A DNA stretch of 64,000 bases, from assembly GCF_031834595.1 (NCBI RefSeq), contig NZ_CP115541.1, positions 3,156,501 to 3,220,500 of the forward strand, given 5' to 3'. The notes below the pieces were generated by a model. It made no database searches. It saw nothing but the letters and a program-made list of their open reading frames with translations, and had not been told where the DNA came from. The translations under genes were made by a program, and so were the position numbers. The first letter of the stretch is position 1. Each line of letters starts with the position of its first letter. Positions 8,667 through 24,804 of the stretch are shown here, in pieces. Source of the DNA: Stenotrophomonas oahuensis. GTDB lineage: Bacteria > Pseudomonadota > Gammaproteobacteria > Xanthomonadales > Xanthomonadaceae.

Positions 8667-9395
8667 ATGGAGACCATACCCACGATGCAACGCCTGTTGA
8701 TCGTCGACGACGACAATGACATCCGCCAGTTGCTGGCCGAACAGCTCGGCCGTGCCGGCTACCAGGTCAGCACCGCCAGCGACGGCCACGGCATGCGCCA
8801 GGTGCTCGACCGCGAGCACGTGGACCTGATCGTGCTGGACCTTAACCTGCCGCGCGAAGACGGACTCACCTTGTGCCGTGATCTGCGCGCGCGCTCCAGC
8901 ACGCCGGTGATCATGCTTACCGCACGCAGCGAGCCGATCGACCGCGTGCTGGGCCTGGAGATGGGCGCGGACGACTACCTGGGCAAGCCGTTCGAGCCGC
9001 GCGAGCTGCTGGCGCGGATCCGCAACGTGCTGCGCCGGACTGAAGCACTGCCGGCCAACCTGGAGCCGCTGGCGATCCGCCGCGCGCGCTTCTCGCAGTG
9101 GACCTTCGACCTGGAGCACCGCCACCTGGTCGACCCGGACGGGCGCGTGGTGGTGCTGTCCGGGGCCGAGTTCCGCCTGTTGCGGGTGTTCGTCGGACAC
9201 GCCAACAAGGTGTTGTCGCGTGAGCAGCTGGTATCGCTCAGCAGCGGCCGCAACTACGAGTCGCAGGACCGCGCCATCGACCTGCAGGTCAGCCGCCTGC
9301 GCAACAAGCTGGGCGGTGACGGCGGCAGCGACGGGCTGATCAAGACCGTGCGCAACGAGGGCTATGTGCTGGCCACGGCGGTCACCCTGGAATGA
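8667..9395 (+). CDS. OmpR/PhoB-family response regulator (MacR/RstA-like)
   Basis: DNA-binding response regulator of 242 residues. Receiver domain: acidic pocket Asp14-Asp15 (LLIVDDDND), phospho-acceptor Asp58 (VLDLNLP), and conserved Lys in LGKPFEPREL. C-terminal winged-helix Trans_reg_C domain: GAEFRLLRVFVGHANKVLSREQL and DRAIDLQVSRLRNKL, ending in IKTVRNEGYVLA. The ATG at 8667 was chosen because AGGGGA lies about ten bases upstream and the protein then begins METIPTMQRLLIVDD; an ATG at 8685 is possible. The stop overlaps the kinase start (ATGA). It is divergent from the macABC-type operon, the position of macR in S. maltophilia. Direct control of the pump is not proven by position, and I recall a report that MacRS had little effect on macABC expression. 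Confidence 0.92.
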   Translation: METIPTMQRLLIVDDDNDIRQLLAEQLGRAGYQVSTASDGHGMRQVLDREHVDLIVLDLNLPREDGLTLCRDLRARSSTPVIMLTARSEPIDRVLGLEMGADDYLGKPFEPRELLARIRNVLRRTEALPANLEPLAIRRARFSQWTFDLEHRHLVDPDGRVVVLSGAEFRLLRVFVGHANKVLSREQLVSLSSGRNYESQDRAIDLQVSRLRNKLGGDGGSDGLIKTVRNEGYVLATAVTLE

Positions 9396-10804
9396 AACGT
9401 CTGCGCGGCTTCTTCGCCTCGATGGTGGGGCGTCTGTTTGTGATCCTGCTGCTGGGCATGAGCGTGGCCGCCATTGGCGCGACCATGCTGGCCGGTGCCA
9501 AGCGCCAGCAGGAGTTCGAGCGACAGAACCTCAATCGCCTGGCCGACCGGCTGCAGGGTTTCGTCAACCTGCTCGACGGCGATCCGGAGCTGCGCGGCCG
9601 GCTGCTGCAGGTCGGGGGCCCGGCGGTGCGCAGCCTGCCCGAGGACGCGCGCCTGGGGCGCGAGGACACCGCGTTCATGGCAGTGCTGGAAGACCGCCCC
9701 GGTGCGGTGGCGCATGCCACGGTGCACTTCACCTCGTTCCGTTCCTGCCTGCCCAAGGCGCAGGAGCTGCTGCCGCCGCCCCCGCCGCCGCAGGCGCGGC
9801 GCAAGCCGCCGCACGAGCGCGATCCCGCCTTCATTCCGCCCAAGTGCCGGGCGGTGCAGTTGCCGCTGAGCGACGGCACCCAGCTGTCGCTGGCGCTGGA
9901 GTCGCCGGCGGTCGCCCATAACGGCATCCTGGCGGTGGACCCGCTGTTCCTGACCCTGCTGGTGCTGGCGATCGGCGTGCTGGCCTATGTGGTCGCGCGC
10001 ATGGCCAGCGCACCGCTGCAGCGGCTGGCCGCGGCCGCCACCGCGCTGGGCGACGACCTGCAGCGTGAGCCGATTCCGGTAACCGGCCCACTGGAGGTGC
10101 GGCGCGCTGCTGAAGCCTTCAATGCCATGCAGACCCGCCTGCAGCGCACGCTGGGCGAACGCACCCAGATGCTGGCGGCGATCACCCATGACCTGCAGAC
10201 CCCGGTGACCCGGCTGCGCCTGCGCCTGGAAAACGTGACCGACGACGCCCTGCGTGAGCGCCTGATCGGCGATCTGGCCGCCATGCAGGCGCTGATCCGC
10301 GAGGGCCTGGAGCTGGCCCGCAGTGCCGAGAGCGCCGAGCAGCGCGCCGCGCTGGACCTGGACTCGCTGCTGGAAAGCATCGTAGAAGACGCCGCCGAGG
10401 CCGGTGCCGAGGCGCACTTCGAGCAGGGCAGTGGCGCGGTGCTGATGCTGCGCCCGCTGGCCATGCACCGGCTGTTCTCGAACCTGGTCGACAATGCGGT
10501 CAGCTACGGCCACAGCGCCCAGGTGCGGGTCGAGCAGGGCGCGGACGGGGTCACCGTACGGGTCCGCGACCAAGGCCCTGGCTTGGCCGAGGACGAACTG
10601 GAGGCGGTGTTCGACCCGTTCGTGCGGCTGGAGACCTCGCGTTCGCGCGAAACCGGCGGGGCCGGGCTCGGCCTGACCATTGCCCGCGCACTGGCCGAAA
10701 AGGATGGCGCGCGGCTGATGCTGCGCAACCACCCGCAGGGCGGGCTGGAGGCGGTGGTGCACTGGCCGGCACCGGCCTGGGCCTCGGCCCAGCGCCCGGG
10801 CTGA
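9392..10804 (+). CDS. Sensor histidine kinase partner of the OmpR-type regulator
   Basis: Inner-membrane histidine kinase, 470 residues. A first transmembrane helix (about 12-34) and a second (about 184-204) flank a periplasmic sensor region of some 150 residues that has a proline run (about 128-133) and two cysteines (119 and 152) that could form a disulfide. HAMP domain about 205-258; HisKA box AAITHDLQTPVTRLR with phospho-accepting His266; then an ATP-binding domain with N box (LFSNLVDNAVSYG), G1 box (RDQGPGLAEDEL) and G2 box (TGGAGLGLTIA). It overlaps the regulator stop by four bases, so the two are a translationally coupled pair. The stimulus is unknown; RstB and MacS-like kinases are the nearest families I can suggest. 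Confidence 0.92.
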   Translation: MKRLRGFFASMVGRLFVILLLGMSVAAIGATMLAGAKRQQEFERQNLNRLADRLQGFVNLLDGDPELRGRLLQVGGPAVRSLPEDARLGREDTAFMAVLEDRPGAVAHATVHFTSFRSCLPKAQELLPPPPPPQARRKPPHERDPAFIPPKCRAVQLPLSDGTQLSLALESPAVAHNGILAVDPLFLTLLVLAIGVLAYVVARMASAPLQRLAAAATALGDDLQREPIPVTGPLEVRRAAEAFNAMQTRLQRTLGERTQMLAAITHDLQTPVTRLRLRLENVTDDALRERLIGDLAAMQALIREGLELARSAESAEQRAALDLDSLLESIVEDAAEAGAEAHFEQGSGAVLMLRPLAMHRLFSNLVDNAVSYGHSAQVRVEQGADGVTVRVRDQGPGLAEDELEAVFDPFVRLETSRSRETGGAGLGLTIARALAEKDGARLMLRNHPQGGLEAVVHWPAPAWASAQRPG

Positions 10805-10942
10805 GATTCACGGAGCAAAGGACTGCGGTTTTGCCTACTATTGGCATCCCCACGCCAGCATCTGCTGCATGAGTGCGCCCTTTGCCGACGGCTGCCCGCA
10901 CCGCGTGACGTCTCTCTTCCGTCTTTCGCCCGGTTCGTGCGG

Positions 10943-13900
10943 ATGTCGGTAAGCGGGGGCGACACCCGGTGGCGGCCGGTACAACCCGACAGCCTCTGGC
11001 AGCGCCTGCTCACGGCGCTGCTGTTGGCGTGCCTGTGGTGTGGGCTGCCCGGTGCCGTACTGGCCCAGGACGGGCCGCCGCCGCTGCGCGACTACGCCAT
11101 CGACGTATGGACCTCGCGCAACGGCCTGCCGCACAACTCGTTGCGGGATATCGCGCAGACCCCGGAAGGCCACCTCTGGTTCGCCACCTGGGAAGGCCTG
11201 GTGCGCTACAACGGCCTGGATTTCACCGTGTTCGACCGGAGCACCCGCCCGGGCCTGCGTGACAACGGGGTCGGCGCGCTGTACGTGGACCGCAACGGCG
11301 GGCTGTGGATCAGCGATTCGCGCGGCAATGTCACCCGGCGCAGCGCGGACGGCCGCTGGCAGGTGTTCGAGCGCCGGCCGCCGGCACCGCAGGTGCTGAT
11401 CCAGGCCATGCAGATGGACAGCCACGGCAAGCTCTGGCTGCTGTACGAGGGCAACGGCATCGGCACCCTGGCCCCGGATGGCCAGTTCCACTACCAGGCT
11501 CCGCCGCCCGGCGTGCCGATGGCGCTGAGCTTCACCAAGCTGGTGGTCGATGCGCAGGACCGGGTCTGGGTGGGCACCCTGGATGGGCTGGTGGTGCGTG
11601 GCACCGACGGCGTGCTGCGACGTGCGCCGGAAAGTTTCGGGCTGGGCCGTGGCCTGGTCTGGCCGTACCGGGGACCGGACGGCGTGCTGTGGATCGTGGC
11701 CGGCGACCGCATCTACCGCATGGTGGACGGGGTGCCGGAACTGCAGCATCAGCTCAGCGGCATCCAGCACATCACCGCCATGCTGCAGGACCGCCACGGC
11801 GATCTGTGGCTGGGCACCGAGAACCAGGGCCTGGTGCGCTTGTCCCGGCACGGCCTGGAACGGTTGCCGGCCGGCTTGAACCTGCCCGGCGGCCGGGTGG
11901 TCAGCCTGCGCGAGGACGCCGAAGGCAGCATCTGGGTAGGGGCCAACGGCGGCCTGTACCGCCTGCGCGAAACCCTGTTCAGCAGCTTCACCGAGCGCGA
12001 CGGACTCAGCGGCGACTACGTGCGCACCGTGCTCGAAGACCGCCAGCGGCAGCTCTGGGTCGGCAGCGCCAGTGGCCTGGACCGCCGCGACCACCAGGGC
12101 GTGTTCCATCCGGTCGGGCTGCGTAACCAGGGCGGCAAGCCGCCGTCAGTGCTGAGCCTGGCCCAGGGCCGCAATGACGACCTGTGGGCAGGCACGTTCG
12201 GTGACGGCATCTTTCAACTGGACGCGCAGGGTCGCACGCTGCGGCAGTTTGGCGAAGCCCAGGGCGTGCCGGGGGGCAACATCCGGGCGATCGCCGTGGA
12301 CCGCAACGGCGTGGTCTGGGCCGGCACCCAGAAGGGCGTGGCGCGGATCGAGGCCGAACGGGTCAGCGTGCCGACGGTAGCGGGCATGCCGACGGGCCTG
12401 ATCACCGCGCTGGCGCATGACGGCGAGGGTGACCTGTGGATCGGCACCATCGAAGGCGTGCGCGTGCTGCGCGGCGACCACGTGCAGTCCATTGACCTCA
12501 GCGCGCTGGGCGGTGGTCGCAGCGTGTTCGGCTTCCAGCAGGTCGGCGATGCGATGTGGATCAGCACCGACCGTGGCCTGTACCGCTACCAGGACGACCG
12601 TCTGTCGCGGGTCGGGCTGGAGCAGGGCATGCCGGTGGATACGGTGTTCCAGCTGGTGCCCGACCGCGTTGGCAACGTCTGGATCAGCAGCAACCGCGGC
12701 GTATTGCGCACCGACATGGCCATGCTCAATGCCGTCGCCGACGGCACCCAGCGCCGGCTCGACGTCGAGCACTACAACGAAATCGACGGCATGGCCAATT
12801 CGCAGGCCAATGGCAGTTCCGGCCCGTCGGCGATCCTGCGTCAGGACGGCACCTTCTGGGTGGTCACTGCTGGCGGCCTGAGCACGGTCGATCCGCTGCG
12901 CCTGCAGCGCTTCCGTGAGCGTCTGGCTCCGCCAGCGGTGATCGAATCGGTGCTGGTCGACGGCGTGCCGCTGCACTGGCAGGGCAGCAACCACAATGCG
13001 CTCCCGGGTGGCGGGCGGCTGAGCATCAGCTACGTGGGCTTGAGCTACCTGATGTCCGAACGCATCCGTTACCGCACCCGGCTGGATGGCCTGGACAACG
13101 GCTGGATCGAGCGCGGTCAGCAGCGCAGCGTCGAGTTCATTGGTCTGCCGCCGGGCGACTACACCCTGCATGTGTCCGCCGCGCATCCGGGCGGCACCTG
13201 GAGTGGCAGCGAAGCCACCTGGTCGTTCACGGTAAAGCCGTTCCTGTGGCAGCGCCGCAGCGTGCAGATCATCGGCGGCCTGTTGCTGCTGGCGGGGCTG
13301 ATCGCGCTGTACCGTTATCTGATTGACCGCTACAAGGCCAGCAACCTGCGCCTGGCGCGCAAGGTCGACGAGGCCACCCGTGATCTACAGGCGCAGACTG
13401 CCAACCTGCAGGCGTTGAACCAGGAAAAGACCCAGCTGGCCGACCGCCTCAAGCTGCAGTCCGAGCAGTTCGAGCGGCAGGCGCGCGAAGACGCGTTGAC
13501 GGGACTGCCCAACCGTCGCGCGTTCGACGAGACGTTGGCGCGCGACTTCGCCCGTTCGCAGCGCAGTGGCCATCCGCTGTGCCTGGTAGTGCTGGACATC
13601 GATCACTTCAAGGACGTGAACGACACGCACAGCCACAGCGTGGGCGACGTGGTGCTGGTGGAAGTGGCGCGCCTGATCGCCTCGGCCTGCCGCGATTCGG
13701 ACATGCCCGCGCGCACCGGTGGCGAGGAGTTCACCCTGCTGCTCAACGACACCCGCCTCGGTGAAGCCGCGCACGTGTGCGCGCGACTGCGTGGGCTGTT
13801 CCACGATCATCCGGACTGGGCGGGCATTCCCGGTTTGAAGGTGACCTTCAGTGCGGGCCTGGTTGAGCTGGATACCGCTGATCGCACGCCGATGCTGTTG

Positions 13901-13969
13901 TATCAGCGTGCCGACCGGGCGTTGTATCGGGCCAAGAGCGAAGGCCGCGACCGAACGGCGATCGGTTGA
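10943..13969 (+). CDS. Periplasmic two-component-type propeller sensor with GGDEF diguanylate cyclase
   Basis: Large membrane-bound protein likely to make cyclic di-GMP in response to a periplasmic ligand. From the ATG at 10943 it has 1008 residues; an upstream TTG at 10841 would add 34. A signal peptide or anchor (LLTALLLACLWCGLPGAVLAQ) is followed by about a dozen regulator-propeller repeats with the recurring pattern D..G.LW.GT..GL..., a Y_Y_Y domain (SYVGLSYLM, PPGDYTLHVSA), one transmembrane helix (IIGGLLLLAGLIALYRYLI), a coiled coil and a C-terminal GGDEF domain. The active-site motif is GGEEF, with substrate residues in VVLDIDHFKDVND, so catalysis is expected. It resembles hybrid BT-type propeller sensors but ends in GGDEF instead of a kinase. 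It follows the histidine kinase gene on the same strand after about 140 bases. Confidence 0.9.
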   Translation: MSVSGGDTRWRPVQPDSLWQRLLTALLLACLWCGLPGAVLAQDGPPPLRDYAIDVWTSRNGLPHNSLRDIAQTPEGHLWFATWEGLVRYNGLDFTVFDRSTRPGLRDNGVGALYVDRNGGLWISDSRGNVTRRSADGRWQVFERRPPAPQVLIQAMQMDSHGKLWLLYEGNGIGTLAPDGQFHYQAPPPGVPMALSFTKLVVDAQDRVWVGTLDGLVVRGTDGVLRRAPESFGLGRGLVWPYRGPDGVLWIVAGDRIYRMVDGVPELQHQLSGIQHITAMLQDRHGDLWLGTENQGLVRLSRHGLERLPAGLNLPGGRVVSLREDAEGSIWVGANGGLYRLRETLFSSFTERDGLSGDYVRTVLEDRQRQLWVGSASGLDRRDHQGVFHPVGLRNQGGKPPSVLSLAQGRNDDLWAGTFGDGIFQLDAQGRTLRQFGEAQGVPGGNIRAIAVDRNGVVWAGTQKGVARIEAERVSVPTVAGMPTGLITALAHDGEGDLWIGTIEGVRVLRGDHVQSIDLSALGGGRSVFGFQQVGDAMWISTDRGLYRYQDDRLSRVGLEQGMPVDTVFQLVPDRVGNVWISSNRGVLRTDMAMLNAVADGTQRRLDVEHYNEIDGMANSQANGSSGPSAILRQDGTFWVVTAGGLSTVDPLRLQRFRERLAPPAVIESVLVDGVPLHWQGSNHNALPGGGRLSISYVGLSYLMSERIRYRTRLDGLDNGWIERGQQRSVEFIGLPPGDYTLHVSAAHPGGTWSGSEATWSFTVKPFLWQRRSVQIIGGLLLLAGLIALYRYLIDRYKASNLRLARKVDEATRDLQAQTANLQALNQEKTQLADRLKLQSEQFERQAREDALTGLPNRRAFDETLARDFARSQRSGHPLCLVVLDIDHFKDVNDTHSHSVGDVVLVEVARLIASACRDSDMPARTGGEEFTLLLNDTRLGEAAHVCARLRGLFHDHPDWAGIPGLKVTFSAGLVELDTADRTPMLLYQRADRALYRAKSEGRDRTAIG

Positions 13970-13982
13970 CCCCACATTGCGT

Positions 13983-14048
13983 TGACACGCATGGCGTGTC
14001 ACTACGACCCATGGTCGCGCGATCTGTAGTGACGCGCCATGCGCGTCA
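13983..14048. repeat. Inverted pair of SMAG palindromes between convergent genes
   Basis: TGACACGCATGGCGTGTCA followed by CTAC (13983-14005) faces a GTAG-led copy (14026-14048). The pair sits exactly between the convergent GGDEF gene and rnt, so it may serve as a bidirectional 3' end structure. Confidence 0.75.
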
Positions 14049-14056
14049 ACTCGAAA

Positions 14057-14734
<678 letters not shown>

Positions 14735-14773
14735 TTAGCAGAGGCACCCTGACGGCCCCTTTCATCGCACCGT

Positions 14774-15424
14774 TCATGCCGGTGCCTGCTGGGTGTTGCA
14801 GGCCACCAGCAGCAGGACCCCCGCCGCCAGCAGCAGGCCCAGTGCGGCGGCCGGCATCAGCCAGGACAGCGGCAGGGCCACGGCGGCAGCCAGCAGGCCC
14901 CAGCTACGCGGCGTGCTGGCCACGCGCGGCAGCGGATGGCGCTGCCACCACGCATCCAGGCTCAGTGCCCCGGGGCCATTGAGCAGCAACGGCAGCAGCA
15001 TCACCACATACAGCAGCGGCAGTTTGAAGTTGCCAAAGCCCTGGTCGGTGATCGCATAACCCTGGGCCAGCTCGGCCAGCGAATCCCACTGCATGGGCCA
15101 GTGCACGGCTGCGGTGGCCACTACGGTCAGCCCGATCAGCGCCGCCGCCGTGGTCCGCGTGGCCAGCCCCAGCAACAACATCAGTGCGCCGACCAGCTCC
15201 ATCCACGTGGCAAGCTGCCAGTTGAGCGCGGACGGCAGCCAGCGCAGCGGCAGCGGAAAGCCGGCCTGGATGTCATCGAACCAGTTGCTGCCCAGCCACT
15301 TCTCGCGGCCGGACTCGAAGAATTCCCAGGCCAGCAGCAGGCGCAGGCCCAATGGGGCGAGCCAGCGGCCCAGGGCGTGGAGATGGGCGTGCAACGCACG
15401 GGTGGTCTGCAACAGTGAGGTCAT
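14774..15424 (-). CDS. hvfX: DoxX-family membrane protein of the hvf operon (HvfX-like)
   Basis: A 216-residue inner-membrane protein with the DoxX fold: segments such as [32 protein letters not shown] and [15 protein letters not shown] are membrane helices, with two further helices at the C-terminus. The start ATG at 15424 ([14 protein letters not shown]) fits better than the longer open frame. It is the last gene of the sigma-hvfABC operon, 76 bases after hvfC. DoxX genes regularly end operons that encode DUF692/DUF2063 RiPP maturases, and these members are called HvfX-type. The role is unknown; a quinone- or redox-linked membrane step, or export, are possibilities. Confidence 0.85.
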
Positions 15425-15460
15425 CAGCGCAATCTCAGGTAGGAGTGTTCCTACAAGAGG

Positions 15461-15488
15461 GCCGGCGCAGCACGAAGGATGCGCCGGC
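15461..15488. other. Hairpin between hvfC and hvfX
   Basis: Inverted repeat GCCGGCGCA (15461-15469) and TGCGCCGGC (15480-15488) in the 76-base hvfC-hvfX gap. There is no T-run, so it more likely moderates read-through or protects the upstream mRNA than fully terminates. A smaller TAGGAG/TTCCTA palindrome lies nearby at 15440-15453. Confidence 0.4.
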
Positions 15489-15500
15489 TTGCGCGGTTGT

Positions 15501-16253
15501 TCAGCCGGGCGTCGGCAATACCGGTCCAATCACGTCAGCGGCCAGCAGCTGGGCCAGCAACGCGCGCCCGTCGGTTTCAATTTGCGCCGGCGAAAGGCCG
15601 TGTTGCACCGCCAGCGTCTGCAGATGCTCGCCGCCGGTGCGGGGCGGTCCCACATTGATCTGTTCCAGCAACTGCCAGGCCAAGGCGCTGAGTGTGGCGA
15701 ACACCACCTCGCCGCCGGCCACGCGCCGGGCCAGCAGAAAGGTCGGCTGCGCGGGCGGCTGCACGGGCTGGTGATCGCGGCCCAGCTGCTGCACCGGCCA
15801 GTGGTAGCCCAGCGGCCAGGCCAGGCCGGATACCTGCAGGACCGATGTCCACGGATCGGTGCCGGGCGGCACCGGGGGCAACGGTTCAGCCGCGCTGCCC
15901 TGCAGGGCCTGTTCGACCCACTCGTAGTGCGCCAGCTCGGCCAGGAACGGACGTGGCAGGTCGTCGCAGGTCTGCAGCCAGCCCACGAACTCGGCGGCCA
16001 CTTCGGTGAACAGCGGCGAGCTGCAGCGGTGCTCGGCGAAATAGCGCCGGCACAGCGCGTGCCATTCGGCGGTGGCCAGTACCTGCAGCAGCACCGGAAA
16101 GCTACCCGCCAGCAGCGCCTGCAGATTGTTGAACAGCAGATCGCGGTAAACCTGCAGGCGGGTATCATCGAGGCCGGCCGGCGCCGGCCGCTGTTCGGGG
16201 TCGCGCAGATGCGCGGTCAGCGCATGCTGCTGTGCGCGCAGGATGTCGCTCAT
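15501..16253 (-). CDS. hvfC: HvfC family RiPP maturation partner (DUF2063)
   Basis: A 250-residue DUF2063 protein. The N-terminal part ([18 protein letters not shown], then [28 protein letters not shown]) is the conserved domain once called putative DNA-binding. In studied systems this type of partner carries a RiPP recognition element and presents the precursor peptide to the iron oxidase. The C-terminal half ([27 protein letters not shown]) matches the recognition-element part. Its ATG overlaps the hvfB stop (ATGA), implying coupled synthesis of the two maturation subunits. Family assignment is firm; action on HvfA is inferred from the operon and from the H. influenzae oxazolin system. Confidence 0.9.
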
Positions 16254-17125
16254 GCCGCCTCCTGCCGGGGTGCCTGCGCAAGGATGCGGCGCACCTGCTG
16301 CAGTTCCTCGCGCAGCTCGACATAAGGTGGGAAATTGAAGTCGCGTTCCAGCAGGGTCGGGCGCGCGCCGAAGCGGGCACAGGCCTGGCGCAGCAGCGCC
16401 CACACCGGGTCGATCACCGGGCCGCCGTGGGTGTCGATCTTCAGCTGCGGGCTTTCATCAAAATGCCCGGCCACATGCATGCACACCACGCGCTCTGCGG
16501 GCAGGCCATCGATGAAGGCGGCCGCGTCATAGCCATGATTGGTGGCGTTGACGTACACATTGTTGACGTCCAGCAGCAGGTCGCAGTCGGCTTCGGCAAG
16601 CACGGCGCGGGTGAAGTCCAGTTCGCTCATCGCCGCATGCGGGGTCAGGTACGTCGACACGTTTTCCACCGCGATGCGCCGGCCCAGGCGGTCCTGCACC
16701 TGGGCGATGCGCGCGGCGGTGTGGCGCACCGCTTCGTCGGTGAACGGCAGCGGCAGCAGGTCATACAGGTGACCATCGTCGCTGCAGTAGCTGAGGTGTT
16801 CGCTGTACAGCACGGCGTTGTGCTGGCGCAGAAAGGCCCCGACCTGGTCGATGAAGGCCAGGTCCAGCGGCGCGCTGCCGCCCAGTGACAGCGACAGGCC
16901 GTGACAGGTCAGTGGATAGCGTTGGCTGAGCGCCTGCAGGCGTTCGGCCCACACGCCGCCCAGCCCGATCCAGTTTTCCGGCGCGCACTCCAGGAAATCA
17001 AGGTCGCCCGGCGCGGCGCTTTCGAGGTCGTCCAGCAGCGCCCGGCGCAGTCCCAGTCCCACCGCCGCCGCAGGCAGCGGCGGTGGGGCGTGGCGACGCG
17101 GGGGCGTGGCGTCAGTGCGAAGCAC
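16250..17125 (-). CDS. hvfB: HvfB family multinuclear non-heme iron oxidase (MNIO, DUF692)
   Basis: Iron-dependent oxidative enzyme that, in the related H. influenzae oxazolin system, converts Cys in EGKCG motifs to oxazolone/thioamide pairs. The TIM-barrel metal-binding motifs are visible: [46 protein letters not shown] and [10 protein letters not shown] chose the GTG at 17125, which overlaps hvfA by 14 bases, has GAAGG about ten bases upstream and gives 291 residues, the usual family size; upstream frame is only the antisense-like Arg/Pro-rich reading of hvfA. The family's DVNN and HxAGH signatures and the adjacent EGKCG peptide make the role strong by context. Chemistry on this particular peptide is inferred. 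Confidence 0.93.
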
Positions 17126-17459
17126 CGCACTTGCCTTCGCCGCACTTGCCCTCGCTGCCCTTCTTCTGGGCGGCGGGCTTGGGCGCGGCCTTGGCCTTGT
17201 CGACCCCGCACTTGCCTTCACCACACTTGCCCTCGGCATGCTTCTTGTCGGCGGGCTTGGCGTGGCTGGAACCGCACTTGCCTTCACCGCACTTGCCTTC
17301 AGCGGCCTTGGCCTCGGCCTTGGGGGCGGCCTGCGCGGCCAGGGCATAGCCCTGGGCCAGGTCGGTCATCGAGAAGGCCGAGGCGGTGCCCGCCAGGCCG
17401 AGGCCGCCGGCCAGGGCAGCACAGGTCAGCAGGGAAACGCGGGTGTGGGTCTTGCTCAT
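17112..17459 (-). CDS. hvfA: HvfA family RiPP metallophore precursor with six EGKCG motifs
   Basis: A 115-residue secreted precursor. Residues 1-28 form a Sec signal peptide ending TASA; a short conserved leader follows ([15 protein letters not shown]), then a Lys/Ala-rich region with three tandem [10 protein letters not shown] blocks at 54-63, 76-85 and 103-112. That gives six EGKCG motifs, with Cys57, 62, 79, 84, 106 and 111; the only other Cys (13) is in the signal peptide. ATG at 17459 has AAGGAG well placed; the longer open frame is not used. In H. influenzae a peptide of this family is modified on six Cys and binds Cu(I) (oxazolin). Here it is preceded by an ECF sigma gene and followed, overlapping, by hvfB. 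Expected product: periplasmic or exported copper-binding peptide. Confidence 0.93.
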
Positions 17460-17539
17460 GGAAACAACTCCTTGAAAGGTCCGGAAAAGCCGGGGTGGTG
17501 CGGAGGGGAGCATGCCGCAATCGCGGCACGCGGGGAACA

Positions 17540-18049
17540 TCAGGCCAGGTACTCGCGCGCCATGACACGGGCACGATGCAGCCGGGCTTTGATGGTGTCG
17601 GGGGTGGTCAGCAGCTGGTCCGCCATTTCGGCGATGGACAGCCCTTCCAGGTCGCGCAGCAGGATGACTTCGCGGTAGTGCGCAGGCAGTGATTCCAGCG
17701 CGGCGGCGCAGTCGCGCCGCAGTTCCTCGGTATCGCGCGGCGCGGGCGGCAGGATTTCCTCGCGCAGTTCCTCATGCTGCCAGTGGCAGCGGGCGCGCTT
17801 GAGCCGGTTGCACTCGCGCTTGACGATGCGGAAGGCCCACGAGGTGAAGCATTCCAGCACGCGCAGGCCGGTCAGCCGCCGCGACACGGTGATCAGGCTT
17901 TCCTGAACCGCGTCTTCGACGTCGTTGATGACGCAGTGGTACTCGGCATATCGGCGCAGATGCTGGCGCGACTGGCCCAGCACGCGTTCGAGCGCATCCC
18001 GGTCACCGCGATGGGCGGCAGCGAGTTCGAGCGGGCAGAGATGTTGCAT
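17540..18049 (-). CDS. ECF sigma factor of the hvf operon
   Basis: Extracytoplasmic-function RNA polymerase sigma factor of about 169 residues. Region 2 includes [25 protein letters not shown] and [20 protein letters not shown]; region 4 is [26 protein letters not shown] followed by [20 protein letters not shown], a normal helix-turn-helix. ATG at 18049 preceded by CAGGA is preferred; a GTG at 18079 would add ten residues. It lies 80 bases upstream of hvfA on the same strand. Sigma factors of this kind (SigF in Caulobacter) drive related bufferin operons under metal or redox stress with the anti-sigma NrsF. No anti-sigma gene is next to it here. I could not identify a convincing ECF promoter upstream of it or of hvfA. 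Confidence 0.9.
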
Positions 18050-18185
18050 CGCGGCGGAGATCCTGTGTGTCAGCGGCACAGGATAAGAGGCGCAGGGCAG
18101 GGGAATGGATGCGCGCCCCGCACAGGTCCTGACAGCAACGGTTCAGGCAAAAAGAACAGGTGACGAAGCGAGCCGATCCCGTCAA

Positions 18186-18222
18186 AACAAACATCCCGCG
18201 CCGGCACAGGCCGACGCGGGAT
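18186..18222 (-). terminator. Rho-independent terminator after the rcnB-like gene
   Basis: Read on the minus strand: CATCCCGCG, a loop, CGCGGGATG, then TTTGTTTTG. It ends the rcnB-like transcript just before the sigma-hvf operon on the same strand, so the latter probably has its own promoter downstream of this point. Confidence 0.75.
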
Positions 18223-18250
18223 GCAGGGACGAGTGGTACTGGTGCGGACC

Positions 18251-18601
18251 TCAGCGGCCGTTGAGCACCACATTCGCAATCAGGCCGGTGGCGACGGCGA
18301 TCAGCACGTAACGCCCATCCACCTGACGCCATTCCTGGCCGCGCGCTGGCGCGTGCAGACCGTGGCGATGGTAGTCACGCACGTAGCTGCCGCGGTGATC
18401 GCGGGGCAGATAGCCACCGCGCTTCGGCGGGGCCTTGTAGGCGTGGCCATGCGAAGGACCCCGGTGGTCGTCGCGGTGGTCGTGGCGCTGGTCGTGACGG
18501 TCGTAGCGATTGCGGTCGTCATGAGGGCCGGGGGCGGCGAAGGCCGAGCCGGTGGCAGCCAGCAGACTCAGGGCGAGCGAGGCAGCGATCAGTCGTTTCA
18601 T
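18251..18601 (-). CDS. His/Arg-rich periplasmic protein, RcnB-like
   Basis: A 116-residue exported protein. A signal peptide (MKRLIAASLALSLLAATGSAFA) is followed by a striking His/Asp/Arg-rich stretch at about 26-52 (repeated DRHD, DHRD, HGH), then a YLPRDHRGSYVRDYHRHGL segment and GQEWRQVDGRYVLIAVATGLIANVVL, the W..v.d.YvLia...G.I pattern of RcnB-family proteins. RcnB in E. coli affects nickel/cobalt homeostasis; most relatives are uncharacterised. The His-rich stretch could bind metal. The ATG at 18601 begins the signal peptide. It sits between phoU and the hvf operon on the same strand, with its own terminator and an RstA-box-like motif about 100 bases upstream. Confidence 0.8.
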   Translation of the reverse strand: MKRLIAASLALSLLAATGSAFAAPGPHDDRNRYDRHDQRHDHRDDHRGPSHGHAYKAPPKRGGYLPRDHRGSYVRDYHRHGLHAPARGQEWRQVDGRYVLIAVATGLIANVVLNGR

Positions 18602-18673
18602 GGCAATCCCTCTGTGTGCGACGCGTCGGTTGGAACGCAGGTCCAGAGTGGGATTTTTTAGCTGAATAGGCAA

Positions 18674-18702
18674 TTAAAAAGGCCGATACCGCGGTATCGG
18701 CC
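18674..18702 (-). terminator. Rho-independent terminator of the pst-phoU operon
   Basis: A 22-base perfect palindrome GGCCGATACC/GGTATCGGCC (18681-18702) followed on the minus strand by TTTTTAATT. It lies 34 bases after the phoU stop. Confidence 0.9.
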
Positions 18703-18716
18703 TGTAACAGCATGTA
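18703..18716 (-). promoter_or_regulatory. RstA-box-like motif upstream of the rcnB-like gene
   Basis: Minus-strand TACATGCTGTTACA, i.e. plus-strand TGTAACA repeated with ten-base spacing. It matches the site at 8546-8559 in the mac/two-component intergenic region at all but one base, in the same orientation relative to the minus-strand genes. It directly abuts the phoU terminator and lies about 100 bases before the rcnB-like start. Confidence 0.45.
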
Positions 18717-18736
18717 ACACGCCACTGGAAGGTGGG

Positions 18737-19444
18737 TCAGATCTGCCCGGCGCTGCTGGTCTCGTCGCGCTTCTCACGCGGCGGCAATGCCTGCTCGCCA
18801 TGCACCAGGAACCACACGTTTTCGGCGATGTTGGTGGCATGGTCGCCCACGCGCTCCAGGTTCTTGGCCATGAACAGCAGATGCGTGCACGGAGTGATGT
18901 TGCGCGGATCTTCCATCATGTAGGTCAGCAGCTCGCGGAACAGCGCGGTGTACTGCGCGTCCAGGCGGGCATCGTCATCGCGAAGGGCCAACGCGGCCAC
19001 GGCATCGTTGTCGCGATAGGCTTCGATGGCACGGCGCACCTGCTGCGCGGCCAGCCGACCCAGCGCCCGCAGGCCCTGGATCTGCGGCAGCGGCGGGGCC
19101 TTGCTGAGCGCGATCGAACGCTTGGCGACGTTGGCCGCGTAGTCGCCGATGCGCTCGATGTCGGCGGGAATGCGCAGCCCGGCCAGGATTTCGCGCAGGT
19201 CGCGCGCCATCGGCCCGCGCAGCGCCAGGCGCATCACGTCGTGGCTGATCTGCTGTTCCAGCGCATCGATGGCTTCGTCGTTGGCGATGATGCGCTGGGC
19301 GGCGTGGTCATCACGCTTCTCGATGACGTCCATCGACGCTTCCAGCTGGGCGACGGCCATCTCGCCCATGCGCACGATCTCGGCCACCAGCCGCTGCTGT
19401 TCTTCGTCGTAGCTCTTGACGATGTGGTCGTTGGGAATGCTCAT
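18737..19444 (-). CDS. phoU: Phosphate signalling protein PhoU
   Basis: A 235-residue helical protein with two three-helix PhoU repeats, each with the metal-binding type pattern: DVIEKRDDHAAQRIIANDEAIDALE plus RIPADIERIGDYAANVAKR in the first, and NLERVGDHATNIAENVWFLV in the second. It restrains PhoR/PhoB signalling when the Pst transporter senses enough phosphate. It is the last gene of pstSCAB-phoU, 50 bases after pstB with a SMAG palindrome between them, and is followed by a strong terminator. Confidence 0.97.
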   Translation of the reverse strand: MSIPNDHIVKSYDEEQQRLVAEIVRMGEMAVAQLEASMDVIEKRDDHAAQRIIANDEAIDALEQQISHDVMRLALRGPMARDLREILAGLRIPADIERIGDYAANVAKRSIALSKAPPLPQIQGLRALGRLAAQQVRRAIEAYRDNDAVAALALRDDDARLDAQYTALFRELLTYMMEDPRNITPCTHLLFMAKNLERVGDHATNIAENVWFLVHGEQALPPREKRDETSSAGQI

Positions 19445-19455
19445 GATCGGTTTCC

Positions 19456-19477
19456 GTAGAGCCGGGCTTGCCCGGCT
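19456..19477 (+). repeat. SMAG palindrome between pstB and phoU
   Basis: A single GTAGAGCCGGGCTTGCCCGGC element in the 50-base pstB-phoU gap. An intra-operon hairpin here could set the phoU:pstB ratio; that role is inferred. Confidence 0.75.
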
Positions 19478-19494
19478 GAATGATGGGGGATGCC

Positions 19495-20352
19495 TTAACC
19501 AAACCGCCCGGTGATGTAATCCTCGGTCTGCTGCTTGTTCGGCTGCGAGAAGATCACTTCAGTACGGTCGTGCTCGATCAGGTCACCCAGGTACATGAAG
19601 GCGGTGTAGTCGGAAACGCGCGCCGCCTGCTGCATGTTGTGGGTGACGATCACGATGGTGTAGTCGTGCTTGAGCTCCTCCACCAGCTGCTCGATGCGGC
19701 TGGTCGAGATCGGGTCCAGCGCCGAGGTCGGTTCGTCCAGTAACAGCACGTCCGGGCGCAGCGCCACCGCACGGGCGATACACAGACGCTGCTGCTGGCC
19801 GCCGGACAGACCCAGCGCGCTCTGGTTGAGCTTGTCCTTCACCTCGTCCCACAGCGCGCCCTGGCGCAGCGCCTGCTCGACGCGCACGTTCATGTCTGCC
19901 TTGGACAGCTTCTCGTGGTGGCGGATGCCGTAGGCGACGTTCTCGAAGATGGTCATCGGAAACGGCACCGGCTTCTGGAACACCATGCCGACCTTGCTGC
20001 GCAGGCGGTTCATCGGGTACTTCGGCGACAGGATATTCTCGCCGTCCAGAAGCACTTCACCCTTGGCTTCCAGCTTCGGGTACAGCGCGTAGATGCGGTT
20101 GAAGATGCGCAGCAGGGTCGACTTGCCGCAGCCGGAGGGGCCGATCAGCGCGGTGACGCGCTTTTCCGGAATCTCCAGATGGATGTCCTTCAGCGCGTGG
20201 AACTTGTCGTAGTAGAAGTCCAGGCCGCGCGCGGCCAGCTTGATCGGGGCCGGGTTGCCCAGCGATTCGTGCGAAGCCGGCACCGCGATGCGCTGCATCG
20301 ACACGGCATTGGTGAGATCGTTCATGGCGATGTCCGCGGAAAAGTCAGTCAT
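19495..20352 (-). CDS. pstB: Phosphate ABC transporter ATP-binding protein PstB
   Basis: ATPase of the high-affinity Pst phosphate importer, 285 residues. Walker [11 protein letters not shown]-loop in [22 protein letters not shown], signature [14 protein letters not shown], Walker [13 protein letters not shown], switch His in [13 protein letters not shown]. An N-terminal extension of about 30 residues precedes the ABC core; internal ATGs at residues 10 and 19 could be the true start. It overlaps pstA by eight bases, indicating coupled translation. Confidence 0.97.
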
Positions 20353-21208
20353 GGGAGATACGGTTGCGCAGCAGGATGCCGCGCGCCGAAAGGCTTACCA
20401 GCAATACGAAGACGGTCAGCACCAGGGCACCGGCCCAGGCGAGGGTCTGCCAGGATTCATACGGGCTGCCGGCAAACTGGTTCATCACCACCGGCACGCT
20501 GGCCATCGGCTGGAACACGTTGCTGTTCCAATACTGGTTGCCGAACGCCGTGAACAGCAGCGGAGCGGTTTCACCCGAGATTCGGGCCAGCGCCAGCAGG
20601 ATGCCGGTGACGATGCCGGCCGAGGCGCTGCGGTACAGCACCTGCACGGTCACCTTCCACTGCGGGATACCCAGCGACAGCGCGGCTTCGCGCATCTGCG
20701 AGGGCACCAGGCGCAGCATTTCGTCGGTCGTACGCACCACCACCGGCAGCACGATGAACGCCAGCGCCAGCGCACCGGCAAAAGCCGAGAACTGGCCCCC
20801 CGTCTGCATCACGAACAGGGTGTAGACGAACAGGCCGAGCACGATCGACGGGGCCGAGAGCAGGATGTCGTTGACGAAGCGGACCACGGTGCCGGCCTTG
20901 CGGGCGTTGCCATACTCGGCCAGCCAGGTACCGGCCAGCACGCCCAGCGGGGTGCCGATGGCAATGGCCAGCACACACATCACCGCGCTGCCGAAGAAGG
21001 CATTGGCCAGGCCACCTTCCTGCATCGGCGGCGGGGTCATCTGGGTGAAGAGGTTCCAGTTGATGCCGGCCAGGCCCTTGGCCGCCAGCGTCCACAGGAT
21101 CCAACCCAGGAAGAACAGGCCGAACAGCGCGGTGGCCACCGACAGGGTGATGGCAACGACGTTGCCGATACGGCGACGCAGGTACAGCGAATCAGCGGCG
21201 GTGGACAT
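20345..21208 (-). CDS. pstA: Phosphate ABC transporter permease PstA
   Basis: Inner-membrane permease subunit of the Pst transporter, 287 residues, with about six membrane helices (for example [18 protein letters not shown] near the N-terminus and [20 protein letters not shown] at the C-terminus). The coupling-loop (EAA-type) segment is [28 protein letters not shown]. Its ATG overlaps the last base of the pstC stop (TGATG) and its end overlaps pstB, as in a tightly packed operon. Confidence 0.96.
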
Positions 21209-22176
21209 CAGTTGCCCTCCTTGCGGGCCAAGCGCATCAGCATCAGGCGGGCAATTGCCAGCACCACGAAGGTCACGATGAACAGCACGAAGCCGAGCAG
21301 CAGCAGCGCCGAACGGTAGGTCTCGGTGGCTTCACCAAAGTCGTTGGCGATCAGCGCGGCAATGGTGGTCCCCGGTTCCAGCAGCGACGGCGACAGGCGC
21401 ACGCTGTTGCCGATCACGAAGGCCACCGCCATGGTTTCACCCAGGGCGCGGCCGAGGCCGAGGAAGACGCCGCCAATCACCGCCGAGCGGGTGTAGGGCA
21501 GCACGATGTCCCAGCTGACTTCCCACTTGGTGGAGCCCAGCGCGTAGGCCGATTCCTTCAGGCGGGTCGGCACGGTCAGGAACACTTCACGCATCACCGA
21601 GGAGATGAACGGAATGACCATGATCGCCAGCACGAAGCCGGCGGTGAGCACACCGATACCCAGCGGCGGACCCTGGAACAGCGGGCCGATCAGCGGCCAC
21701 TCGCCCAGGGTTTCGTTGAGGGTAGGGGTGACATATTCGGTCATCACCGGCACCAGCACGAACAGGCCCCACATGCCGTAGATGATCGACGGAATGCCGG
21801 CCAGCAGTTCAATGGCGGTACCGACCGGGCCGCGCATCCAGCGCGGAGCCACCTCGGTGAGGAAGAAGGCGATACCGAAGCTTACCGGTACGGCGATCAG
21901 CATTGCGATCAGCGCGGTGACCAGGGTGCCGTAGATCGGCGCAAGCGCACCGAACTTGTTTTCCACCGGATTCCAGTCGGAGGAATAGAAGAAGCTCAGG
22001 CCCTGCTCCTGCAGGGCATGACGGCCGCCCCACAGCATCGACAGTGCCGCGCAGGCCAGCGCGATCAGGACCAGGACAACGGTGGCGACCAGCACCCCTT
22101 TGAAGATCTTGTCGTTGCGGGCATCACGCAGGTCGCGCGTGGACGGTGCAGGTACAGGCTGGGCGATGGCATTCAT
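21208..22176 (-). CDS. pstC: Phosphate ABC transporter permease PstC
   Basis: Partner permease of PstA, 322 residues. Six helices, including [21 protein letters not shown] and the last [21 protein letters not shown], plus the coupling loop [31 protein letters not shown] at 22176 ([13 protein letters not shown]) was chosen over a longer open frame that reads through SMAG repeats. It is about 145 bases downstream of pstS1; the gap holds an inverted SMAG pair that probably lowers expression of pstCAB relative to the binding protein. Confidence 0.95.
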
Positions 22177-22226
22177 GGGAAAGGCGAGGGCCCGGGGTTG
22201 TGGTGCGATGCGGGGAATGACGCTTT

Positions 22227-22296
22227 GTAGAGCCGGGCTTGCCCGGCTGCACGCGGTGTTGCGGTGGTCCGCAATGCCGGGCAAGCCCGGCACTAC
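22227..22296. repeat. Inverted SMAG pair between pstS1 and pstC
   Basis: GTAG-led AGCCGGGCTTGCCCGGCT (22227-22248) faces TGCCGGGCAAGCCCGGCA-CTAC (22275-22296). In RNA the two copies can pair with each other or fold separately. Binding-protein genes are often followed by such stabilising structures. Confidence 0.78.
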
Positions 22297-22321
22297 GCAA
22301 ATGGCCCCAAGGGCCGCGTTT

Positions 22322-23413
22322 TTACTTGAACTCAGTCGACCAGTAGCCTTCGATCTGGGTCACCAGTTCCGCCGGCAGCGGCACGTAGTGCAGTTCGTTG
22401 GCCTGGGCCTGGCCGTTCTCGAAGGCCCACTTGAAGAACGCCAGGGTGTCCTTGCTGCGCTTGGCATCCTTGGGCTGCTTGTGCATCAGCATGAAGTTGG
22501 TGGCGGTGATCGGCCATGCCTGGTCGCCCGGGGCATTGGTGATGACCAGGTTGAAGTCCTTGGCGCTGGCCCAGTCGGCGCTGGCAGCGGCAGCGGCGAA
22601 GGTTTCGGCGGTCGGCTGCACCCAGTTGCCAGCGGCGTTCTGCATCGAGGCGTACGGCATGCCGTTCTGCAGGGCGTAGGCCAGTTCGACGTAGCCGATC
22701 GAACCCTTGATCTGCTTCACGTACGAGGCCACGCCTTCGTTGCCCTTGCCACCCACGCCGTCCGGCCACTGCACCGAGGTGCCTTCGCCGACCTTGCTCT
22801 TCCAGTCCGGGCTGACCTTGGACAGGTAGTTGGAGAAGTTGAAGGTGGTGCCCGAACCGTCGGAACGGTGGACCAGGGTGATCTTGCCGTCGGGCAGCTT
22901 CACGCCCGGGTTGGCGGCGACGATGGCCGGGTCGTTCCAGGTCTTGACCTTGCCCAGGAAGATGTCGGCCAGCAGCGCGCCGCTCAGGCGCAGCTTGCCG
23001 GCTTCCAGGCCTTCAATGTTGACCACCGGAACCACGCCGCCGATGGCGGACGGGAACTGGCCGAGGCCGGCCTGGGCCAGCTCTTCGCTGGACAGCGGCT
23101 TGTCGGAGGAACCGAAGTCGACGGTGCCGGCCTTGATCTGGGCGATACCGCCACCCGAACCGATCGACTGGTAGTTGACCTTGGCACCGGTGGCGGCGTT
23201 GTAGTCAGCCGACCACTTGGACACCAGCGGGAAGATGAAGGAAGCGCCGGCACCGGAGATTTCGGCGCTGATCTTGTCGCCAGCCGCCGGGGCAGCAGCG
23301 GGGGCGTCGGCCGCCGGAGCGGTGGCCTGGCCTTCAGCAGCCGGCTTGCAGGCGGACAGGCCCAGGGCGATGGCCAGGGAAAGGGCGGCGAAGCCGGCCG
23401 ATTGCAGTTTCAT
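22322..23413 (-). CDS. pstS: Phosphate-binding lipoprotein PstS (first copy)
   Basis: Phosphate-binding component feeding PstCAB, 363 residues. It has a lipoprotein signal (IALGLSACKP, lipidated Cys22) and an Ala/Pro-rich tether of about 25 residues. The mature PBP_like domain follows, with phosphate-contact motifs SGAGASFIFPLVSKW, GSGGGIAQI, DFGSSDKPLS and VHRSDGSGTTFNFSNYLS. It is thus membrane-anchored, unlike the second copy next to it, which has a cleavable Sec signal and no tether. A Pho-box-like array lies about 55 bases upstream. It heads the pstS-C-A-B-phoU cluster. Confidence 0.96.
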   Translation of the reverse strand: MKLQSAGFAALSLAIALGLSACKPAAEGQATAPAADAPAAAPAAGDKISAEISGAGASFIFPLVSKWSADYNAATGAKVNYQSIGSGGGIAQIKAGTVDFGSSDKPLSSEELAQAGLGQFPSAIGGVVPVVNIEGLEAGKLRLSGALLADIFLGKVKTWNDPAIVAANPGVKLPDGKITLVHRSDGSGTTFNFSNYLSKVSPDWKSKVGEGTSVQWPDGVGGKGNEGVASYVKQIKGSIGYVELAYALQNGMPYASMQNAAGNWVQPTAETFAAAAASADWASAKDFNLVITNAPGDQAWPITATNFMLMHKQPKDAKRSKDTLAFFKWAFENGQAQANELHYVPLPAELVTQIEGYWSTEFK

Positions 23414-23467
23414 GCGTCACTCCATAGCGGGAAAAGGGCCGGTCTGGCCGGCTGACGCTGCTATGAA

Positions 23468-23496
23468 ATGATGTTTTTGTTACAGCCGTATGACGC
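23468..23496 (-). promoter_or_regulatory. Pho-box-like array upstream of pstS1
   Basis: On the minus strand three 7-base units at 11-base steps: GCGTCAT, CTGTAAC and ACATCAT, separated by four bases, approximating the PhoB half-site CTGTCAT. It lies about 55 bases from the pstS1 start. A further similar pair (CAGTCAT-N4-CCATCAC) at 23505-23522 is not in phase. Confidence 0.6.
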
Positions 23497-23587
23497 ACCC
23501 GTCGGTGATGGGGTAATGACTGTTGGAACAAGGGCTTACGTGGATAAATGGCTGGAAGCGAGAGGCGGTCGGGCGGGTCTCTGAAAC

Positions 23588-23615
23588 AAAAAAGCGCGGA
23601 TCAGATGATCCGCGC
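23588..23615 (-). terminator. Terminator after the second pstS
   Basis: Minus-strand hairpin GCGCGGAT / ATCCGCGC followed by TTTTTT. It separates the second pstS from the pstS1-phoU operon, so the two are transcribed independently. Confidence 0.88.
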
Positions 23616-23672
23616 CCGGGGGTGCCGGCAGGGGGAGAGAGGACCTGCCGGCACCGCTGCTTCGTCCCGTCA

Positions 23673-23777
23673 GTGCCGACCAACGGTCGGCACCTACCGC
23701 TGATTGACCCGGTGAGGATTCACCGGTCATTGCCGCGGTGTGGAATCACCGGTAGGTCACGACCGTTGGTCGTGACC
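23673..23777. repeat. Inverted SMAG pair downstream of the second pstS
   Basis: GTGCCGACCAACGGTCGGCAC-CTAC (23673-23697) and GTAGGTCACGACCGTTGGTC (23752-23777) in opposite orientation, in the 371-base pstS1-pstS2 gap. The gap otherwise holds the pstS2 terminator and the pstS1 Pho-box-like array; I see no gene in it. Confidence 0.78.
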
Positions 23778-23784
23778 GGGTCGA

Positions 23785-24804
23785 TCAGTACTTCAGGTTC
23801 TGCGACCAGTAGGTGTCGATCTGCTTCACGAGCGAGTCCGGCAGCGGCACGTAGTCCAGCTGCTTGGCCTGTGCGTCGCCGTTCTTGTAGATCCAGCGGA
23901 AGAACTCCTGGCTGGCCTTGGCACCGGCGGCGTTCTTCGGCTGCTTCTGCATCAGGATGAAGTTGGTGGCGGTGATCGGCCACGCTTCAGCACCCGGGGC
24001 GTTGGTCATCACCAGGTAGAAGTCCTTGGCGTTGGCCCAGTCGGCGCTGGCAGCGGCGGCCGAGAACGAGGCGTCGCTCGGCTGCACGATCTTGCCGGCG
24101 GCGTTCTTCATGGCGGTGTAGGACAGCTTGTTCTGCAGGGCGTAGGACAGTTCGACGTAGCCGATGCCGCCCTTGATCTGCTTCACGTAAGCGGCGACGC
24201 CTTCGTTGCCCTTGCCGCCGATGCCGGCCGGCCACTGCACCGAGGTGCCTTCACCGACCTTGCTCTTCCACTCCGGGCTGACCTTGGACAGGTAGTTGAC
24301 GAAGTTGAAGGTGGTGCCCGAACCGTCGGAGCGGTGCACGACGGTGATCTTCTGGTTCGGCAGGGTGACGCCCGGGTTCAGCGCGGCAATGGCCGGGTCG
24401 TTCCAGGTCTTGACCTTGCCCTGGAAGATGTTGGCCAGGGTGGGGCCGTCCAGCTTCAGCGCGCCCGGGGCGACGCCTGCCACGTTGACCACCGGCACCA
24501 CGCCGCCGATCACCGACGGGAACTGGGCCAGGCCGGCAGCGGCGAGTTCTTCCGGCTTCAGCGGGGCATCGGACGAACCGAAGTCCACGGTCTTGGCCTT
24601 GATCTGGGCAATACCACCGCCGGAACCGATGGACTGGTAGTTGACCTTCTTGCCGGTGGCGGCGTTGTAGTCGGCCGACCACTTCGACATGACCGGATAG
24701 ATGAACGATGCGCCTGCGCCGGTGACATCGGCGGCATTGGCGGCAAACACGGACGACGCGGCGATGACGGCAACGGCAAGGCGCGACTTGAAGGCGTGGA
24801 TCAC
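23785..24804 (-). CDS. pstS: Phosphate-binding periplasmic protein PstS (second copy)
   Basis: A second PstS-family protein, 339 residues, with a Sec signal peptide (MIHAFKSRLAVAVIAASSVFAANA) and no lipobox. The mature sequence starts ADVTGAGASFIYPVMSKW and keeps the contacts GSGGGIAQI, DFGSSDAPL and VHRSDGSGTTFNF, aligning end to end with the lipoprotein copy. It is therefore a clear tandem paralogue, probably a free periplasmic pool feeding the same PstCAB. Five 11-base-spaced Pho-box units lie just upstream and a terminator follows. It lies between the phosphate porin gene and pstS1, all on one strand. Confidence 0.95.
   Translation of the reverse strand: MIHAFKSRLAVAVIAASSVFAANAADVTGAGASFIYPVMSKWSADYNAATGKKVNYQSIGSGGGIAQIKAKTVDFGSSDAPLKPEELAAAGLAQFPSVIGGVVPVVNVAGVAPGALKLDGPTLANIFQGKVKTWNDPAIAALNPGVTLPNQKITVVHRSDGSGTTFNFVNYLSKVSPEWKSKVGEGTSVQWPAGIGGKGNEGVAAYVKQIKGGIGYVELSYALQNKLSYTAMKNAAGKIVQPSDASFSAAAASADWANAKDFYLVMTNAPGAEAWPITATNFILMQKQPKNAAGAKASQEFFRWIYKNGDAQAKQLDYVPLPDSLVKQIDTYWSQNLKY

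Follow-up and report, generated by a model that had tools for sequence, protein, structure and literature searches.

In nontypeable Haemophilus influenzae, the oxazolin operon encodes the precursor peptide HvfA, which has a signal peptide and three pairs of EGKCG motifs, six in all (PMC13419390), together with an HvfB-type multinuclear iron oxidase (MNIO), a DUF2063 partner and a DoxX protein. Its hvf genes are controlled by RpoE2, a sigma factor of the extracytoplasmic function (ECF) type encoded in the msrAB-rpoE2 region along with the small anti-sigma factor HrsE; RpoE2 also controls msrAB, and the induction of the DoxX/hvf cluster by hypochlorite is RpoE2-dependent (PMC7907618). Fontiphorin (fonABC) and gonophorin, of the captophorin class, likewise combine EGKCG repeats with an MNIO and its PME1 partner, and in such relatives the MNIO and the DUF2063 partner convert each EGKCG cysteine (PMC13097082, PMC13419390). 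In Caulobacter, the ECF sigma factor SigF controls the precursor, MNIO, DUF2063 and DoxX genes of bufferin-1, its own gene being preceded by a matching promoter, in a system with a DUF2282 precursor, the membrane anti-sigma factor NrsF and the promoter GTAACC-N16-CGAA (PMC3511200). Here, we analyse a five-gene operon, sigma-hvfA-hvfB-hvfC-hvfX, on the minus strand at 14774-18049 of a 64,000-nucleotide stretch of the Stenotrophomonas oahuensis genome (contig NZ_CP115541.1, positions 3,156,501 to 3,220,500), hereafter the window.

The operon in the window resembles that of H. influenzae in the signal peptide and three motif pairs of its precursor, in its HvfB-type MNIO, DUF2063 partner and DoxX protein, and in the probable command of an ECF sigma factor over the hvf genes. 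It differs in the place of the sigma gene, which here heads the operon; no anti-sigma gene was found beside it. The fon cluster shares the EGKCG repeats and the MNIO-PME1 pair, but with its three genes it is minimal and lacks both a sigma factor and a DoxX gene. The initial annotation of the operon had drawn a parallel with SigF of Caulobacter, which stands as far as an ECF sigma factor would control a precursor-MNIO-DUF2063-DoxX set and has a matching candidate promoter before its own gene; however, no DUF2282 precursor, NrsF or GTAACC-N16-CGAA promoter was found in the window's system. In PMC12452194, the DUF2282 type is reported to have sigma factors and NrsF, and the Buf2 type is not.

Identity of the operon

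The operon is confirmed, on the basis of its sequence, as a member of the EGKCG/oxazolin ("captophorin") class, which is widespread in Pseudomonadota. Its HvfB-HvfC pair is predicted to make copper-binding 5-thiooxazoles, and its own ECF sigma factor probably drives it from two promoter-like sites, P1 before the sigma gene and P2 before hvfX. Directly observed are the five genes with their family scores, the six motifs of HvfA, P1 and P2, and the co-occurrence of sigma factor and sites across genomes. The five-gene array and the gene names first given to it hold up: all five genes are open and present, NCBIfam models for HvfB, HvfC, HvfX and KCGExKCG score above their cut-offs, and Pfam agrees for the four genes other than hvfA (paired scores from the NCBIfam and Pfam profile scans are given as bits / model cut-off). 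Furthermore, the order sigma-hvfA-hvfB-hvfC-rnt is kept in all 12 named loci whose sigma factor is at least 59% identical, from Lysobacter, Pseudoxanthomonas, Arenimonas, Luteimonas and one unclassified Xanthomonadaceae genome, with hvfX detectable in five of them. Family scores and conserved gene order together place the assignment beyond chance.

The precursor gene hvfA (17112-17459, minus strand, 115 aa) carries six EGKCG motifs arranged as three pairs (17286-17300, 17271-17285, 17220-17234, 17205-17219, 17139-17153 and 17124-17138, all minus strand) and begins with what we judge by eye to be a Sec-type signal peptide. NF050137 (KCGExKCG_twice) matches it in three stretches (54.7 / 19.5), and no Pfam family was matched in the Pfam scan. 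The maturase HvfB, an MNIO of the DUF692 family (16250-17062, minus strand; NF003818 411.5 / 360; PF05114), is the only PF05114 match in its genome, and its gene starts at GTG 17062 or at the in-frame GTG 17125, which would overlap the end of hvfA. Its closest solved structure is 3bww, and the DVNN (16547-16570) and DTHG motifs (the latter within DTHGG, 16421-16435; both minus strand) are kept in the alignment and would hold residues N175, D242 and H244. The start of hvfC (15501-16253, minus strand) overlaps the stop of hvfB as ATGA. HvfC, the DUF2063 / RiPP-recognition (PME1) partner (NF050145 260.3 / 142; PF09836 and PF22106; RiPP, ribosomally synthesised and post-translationally modified peptide), has a single solved relative among those found, 3dee; 3bww and 3dee are named as MNIO and PME1 partner in PMC13097082. 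The sigma gene itself (17540-18049, minus strand, 169 aa) matches Sigma70_r4_2 at 55.6 / 25.7, with the Pfam model Sigma70_r2 marginally under its cut-off (23.5 / 24); its start at ATG 18049 is favoured over GTG 18079, which would sit near the predicted transcription start. The last gene, hvfX (14774-15424, minus strand; NF050144 141.7 / 80; PF07681), encodes a membrane protein of the DoxX family.

Candidate promoters before sigma and hvfX

Both P1 (GCATCC-N17-CTCTTAT, 18083-18112, minus strand) and P2 (GCATCC-N17-CTCTTGT, 15453-15482, minus strand) are of ECF type. When all pairs of 4-mers were enumerated over 34 dereplicated regions upstream of sigma, the top pairs were CGCA-N20-CTCT and TAAA-N6-CTGA, each in 16 of the 34, compared with nine for the best of 30 shuffled sets. 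The first pair fits an ECF promoter GMAHCC-N17-CTCTT. The second fits a direct repeat with an 11-bp period that lies 33-43 bases upstream of the promoter pattern where both match; in the window this repeat reads CTGAAC-N5-CTGTCA (18130-18146, minus strand) and is a candidate activator site. The stricter GMAHCC-N17-CTCTTRT has two matches in the window's own 4.68-Mb genome, P1 and P2, both oriented with the operon, whereas a reversed control has one. Among the 91 genomes of the window's genus, to which all genus counts refer, this pattern precedes sigma in all eight sigma-carrying genomes and occurs anywhere in 12 of the 83 sigma-less ones (Fisher p 1.5e-6, for rows that are not independent of one another). 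Before hvfX, GMAHCC-N17-CTCTT is present in five of the eight sigma-carrying genomes, in contrast to none of the 16 sigma-less genus loci with hvfX, a count that leaves out L049, whose contig begins within hvfA. The gap between hvfC and hvfX, taken between matches, measures 86-105 nt in loci with sigma, compared with 27-45 nt in those that lack it.

On the molecular level, the sigma factor would thus transcribe from P1 and P2. Judging from the layout, and held less firmly than this, an activator of OmpR type at the upstream direct repeat might start sigma transcription, after which sigma would amplify its own operon and hvfX.

P2 can be read in another way. It is overlapped by a perfect 9-bp inverted repeat (GCCGGCGCA / TGCGCCGGC, 15461-15488, minus strand), and inverted repeats are visible before hvfX in some relatives, so that P2 could be an RNA hairpin, an attenuator or terminator whose loop looks like a promoter by chance, with hvfX read through from P1 only. 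The occurrence of the site in just one of the five named loci with hvfX outside the genus would agree with this. However, the 4.68-Mb genome has just two strict matches, which both fall in the operon on its own strand, the GCATCC and CTCTT blocks hold their 17-nt spacing while the spacer sequence varies, and the site is missing from all 16 sigma-less genus loci with hvfX. We consider the hairpin a credible minority explanation and prefer transcription from P2 by the sigma factor.

Several further points weigh against that preferred reading. The reversed control matches in 71 of the 91 genomes, compared with 20 for the pattern itself, and the weight therefore rests on the position of the matches rather than on their number. 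The site before hvfX is degenerate in three of the eight sigma-carrying genus genomes, and three of the same five named loci outside the genus have an hvfX gap of 17-41 nt despite their sigma factor. The exact promoter patterns were written after most upstream regions had been seen; in six dereplicated named loci unseen beforehand, the strict promoter and the direct repeat were each found in one, with near-forms in some, and the window's own genome contains no match to CTRAAY-N5-CTGAAY, a form of the repeat. As to the class assignment, the strict HvfA equivalog NF050188 stays under its cut-off on the precursor (58.8 / 95). Finally, HvfB is kept without sigma in most genomes of the genus, and the sigma factor is therefore not needed for the pathway as such.

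Matches to the promoter pattern were also seen away from the operon. A third one precedes a gene with a DM13 domain (PF10517) in three sigma-carrying genomes, with a like site in a fourth (L188, L165, L190 and L194, that is, G122, G123, G124 and G145), and variants of the form GGATCG-N17-CTCT were noted by eye before the DM13-domain gene in G173, G186 and G175. The window's own genome has no orthologue of this gene, only a 40% relative. In one genome without an HvfB match (G133:C4:361-885), three matches lie about 248 bases apart in an apparent tandem repeat.

The sigma factor and its possible switch

The sigma factor is closely tied to the peptide genes. It was detected (E <= 1e-20) in eight of the 91 genus genomes, before hvfA in every one of them. 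Elsewhere in the family, 27 of 29 loci from other genera have hvfA and/or hvfB next to it, the exceptions being L028 and L031. These 29 scored best among 119 genomes searched, a set that leaves out weaker matches in G033 and G095, and they may share some organisms with the 12 named loci.

One possibility is that the sigma factor only looks orphaned and is in fact restrained by an unlinked anti-sigma factor, in the manner of other ECF systems. The known ECF systems of the pathway do have such a partner, NrsF in Caulobacter (PMC3511200) and HrsE in H. influenzae (PMC7907618). The neighbourhood of sigma speaks against it: the distance from sigma to hvfA is 49-153 nt in 14 loci, with no sizeable gap, and phoU adjoins sigma directly upstream in the nine of the 12 named loci that could be resolved, with no common open reading frame of 40 aa or more between them. 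Furthermore, NrsF (PF06532) is absent from the genome by a search that was positive in Caulobacter, although other anti-sigma families were not searched genome-wide. We regard an unlinked anti-sigma factor as possible but on balance unlikely.

Alternatively, the sigma factor might sense by itself. Regulation without an anti-sigma factor is the manner of the CorE-type ECF sigma factors of Myxococcus, and for the window's sigma factor such a manner is only possible. In CorE, copper is sensed by a Cys-rich domain at the C-terminus, and the CorE type (ECF238, former ECF44) also has a CXC in its linker (PMC8999054); in contrast, the 169-aa sigma factor of the window ends after region 4, its linker reads RARCHW, and its conserved cysteines lie within region 2. 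All 46 sigma rows of the alignment, from 37 genomes, have H38, C39 and C80. As a special sensor residue C80 is a weak candidate: it recurs widely among unrelated ECF factors, and the loci for this comparison were themselves retrieved with a pattern that contains it. C39 is more discriminating (22 of 22 loci L069-L090, compared with 2 of 57 others), and H38 occurs in just 14 of the same 22. The C39 subfamily also extends to loci without hvf genes, for example in Mesorhizobium, Asticcacaulis and Chloroflexi, and ten loci with sigma factors at 35-53% identity (L080-L082, L084-L090) have no hvf gene nearby. A single-sequence structure model of the sigma factor reached a mean pLDDT of 44.5 and was not used.

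A fuller version of this second possibility would make the sigma factor a one-component sensor that, lacking an anti-sigma partner, detects copper or oxidants directly through H38, C39 and C80 of region 2 and switches on its own operon and hvfX, and that across most of the genus has given way to an element shared with msrB. We hold this full version to be doubtful.

As a separate observation, the sigma factors of the ten loci without hvf genes share C39 and C80, those from other phyla included, and possibly form part of a wider cysteine-marked ECF subfamily.

States of the locus within the genus

HvfB (E <= 1e-20) is encoded in 79 of the 91 genus genomes, and three states of its locus can be told apart. 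In the first, the locus is led by sigma (8/91). In the second, sigma is missing and hvfA is preceded by the element ACGAAA-N2-TTGA-N9-GAGGATTC, which also precedes msrB, the gene for a methionine-sulfoxide reductase (NCBIfam 173.1 / 113.05). The strict form of this msrB-type pattern matches in 51 genomes, all of them among the 83 sigma-less ones and none among the eight with sigma, while its control matches in 0 of 91. By sequence type and place, hvfA sites could be assigned in 49 of the 71 genomes with HvfB but without sigma; G180 and G182 have msrB sites with no hvfA site assigned. The third state comprises the other 22 HvfB-carrying sigma-less genomes, which lack the strict pattern before hvfA and in part show near-forms (L053, L055). 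Three of these 22, read closely (G192, G143, G146), lack sigma and hvfX, and we could see no such element in them. Of the 91 genomes, 26 have a further HvfB gene at another place, with an identity of about 63-66%.

A strictly reciprocal switch between the sigma factor and the msrB-type element was considered and ruled out, as a diverged form of the element stands before msrB in all eight sigma-carrying genomes, that of the window included; therefore, the genomes differ in the state of the hvf operon but not in the msrB site as such. The sharing of one element by hvfA and msrB in the second state is the same pairing as that of the RpoE2 targets of H. influenzae, arrived at independently, and argues that the peptide is part of the response to oxidant and metal stress in the envelope. 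At L206, L208, L210 and L212, where the promoter element is common to msrB and hvfA in sigma-less genomes, MsrB has a signal-sequence-like N-terminus; at L212, the gene after msrB has a match to DsbD_TM slightly under cut-off (24.9 / 27.1).

Predicted product and its role

The initial annotation cited oxazolone/thioamide pairs, formed from six cysteines in H. influenzae, as the modification. This has been overtaken by the reassignment of the class modification to 5-thiooxazole, made by both PMC13097082 and PMC13419390. By analogy with the relatives described there, HvfB and HvfC are predicted to convert the six HvfA cysteines to copper-binding 5-thiooxazoles in the cytoplasm, at about -4 Da each; HvfA would then be exported by the Sec pathway and bind Cu(I) in the periplasm, and the mature peptide may protect against excess copper or oxidants. 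The proposed role as a likely copper-binding RiPP is accepted on the same grounds. Copper binding by mature captophorins has been measured, the authors favouring a role in copper detoxification, and published relatives are often induced by excess metal or oxidants; according to the conclusions of that paper, a specific molecular function is still to be tied to these peptides (PMC13097082).

The peptide might instead be mainly a thiol or oxidant buffer, for example against hypochlorite, with copper binding secondary. The element before hvfA in sigma-less genomes points this way, since it also precedes msrB (of 89 sites listed, 35 were fetched, 16 before hvfA and 19 before msrB), as does the control of msrAB by RpoE2 in H. 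influenzae with its hypochlorite-induced, RpoE2-dependent DoxX/hvf genes (PMC7907618). The measured copper binding of mature captophorins and their authors' view of a detoxification role argue against it, and we think a mainly oxidant-buffering peptide improbable. A methanobactin-like scavenger for copper uptake, another option of the initial annotation, has an enzyme superfamily in common with methanobactin to recommend it but is very unlikely, as the MbnB model TIGR04159 falls far under its cut-off on the window's MNIO (47.7 / 325), relatives are frequently induced by metal excess or oxidants (PMC13097082), and the operon's five genes include no importer.

Genomic context and evolution

Downstream of the operon lies rnt, for ribonuclease T (14057-14725, minus strand), which is kept in 12 of 12 named loci. 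Immediately upstream is a gene with an RcnB domain (18251-18601; PF11776 64.1 / 25.9), followed by phoU (18737-19444; Pfam PhoU 140.8 / 23.5) and, further upstream, by ATP-binding cassette (ABC) transporter ATPase and permease genes (19495-20352 and 20345-21208; ABC_tran and BPD_transp_1) that we read as pstB and pstA, all on the minus strand. The RcnB-domain (nickel/cobalt) gene also precedes the operon in several other genus genomes; the NCBIfam CigR model scores under its cut-off on it.

A recent horizontal acquisition of the operon is not needed to explain this layout, with rnt downstream in 12 of 12 and phoU upstream in nine of 12 named loci and flanks that align in 13 of 13 genus regions. 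No plasmid match was found at megablast level. Within 8001-26000 of the window, DNA identity to genus relatives falls over the hvf stretch to about 66-88% (bins of 500 bases, aligned parts), forming an island between flanks of up to 97%; local exchange is a possible reason for the operon being less conserved than its surroundings. A tree of HvfB and HvfC with 34 rows (30 from the genus, four named) groups the window with G192 and G146, which speaks for sigma and hvfX having been lost from these two sister genomes. The tree needs four changes of the sigma label, one of which may be an artefact because the contig of L049 ends short of the sigma position.

Discussion

The initial annotation had thought a virulence-linked RiPP in an environmental genus notable. 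This is a weak point: HvfB is present in 79 of 91 genus genomes, all 12 named loci keep the gene order from sigma to rnt, about 2,000 such precursors have been counted, with the core genes in most of their clusters (PMC12452194), and MNIO-PME1 clusters occur in about half of Pseudomonadota reference genomes (PMC13097082). The operon is therefore no virulence oddity. The peptide pathway is known and common, with chemistry typical of its class, and it is the variation in regulation that deserves a follow-up. In the open literature, we found no paper on this operon in Stenotrophomonas or on a sigma-led EGKCG operon, although Figure 3f or the supplements of PMC12452194 may show one. The operon is thus a known class member whose regulatory arrangement was not found in the literature searched.

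What the locus offers is a natural comparison within one genus, in which the same operon at the same site has its own sigma factor, an msrB-type element, or neither that we found (three loci, which also lack hvfX). With no anti-sigma factor linked to it, such an ECF sigma factor is also a candidate for a novel sensing mechanism. Together with the candidate promoters, the states of the locus make it testable whether captophorins answer to copper, to oxidants or to both.

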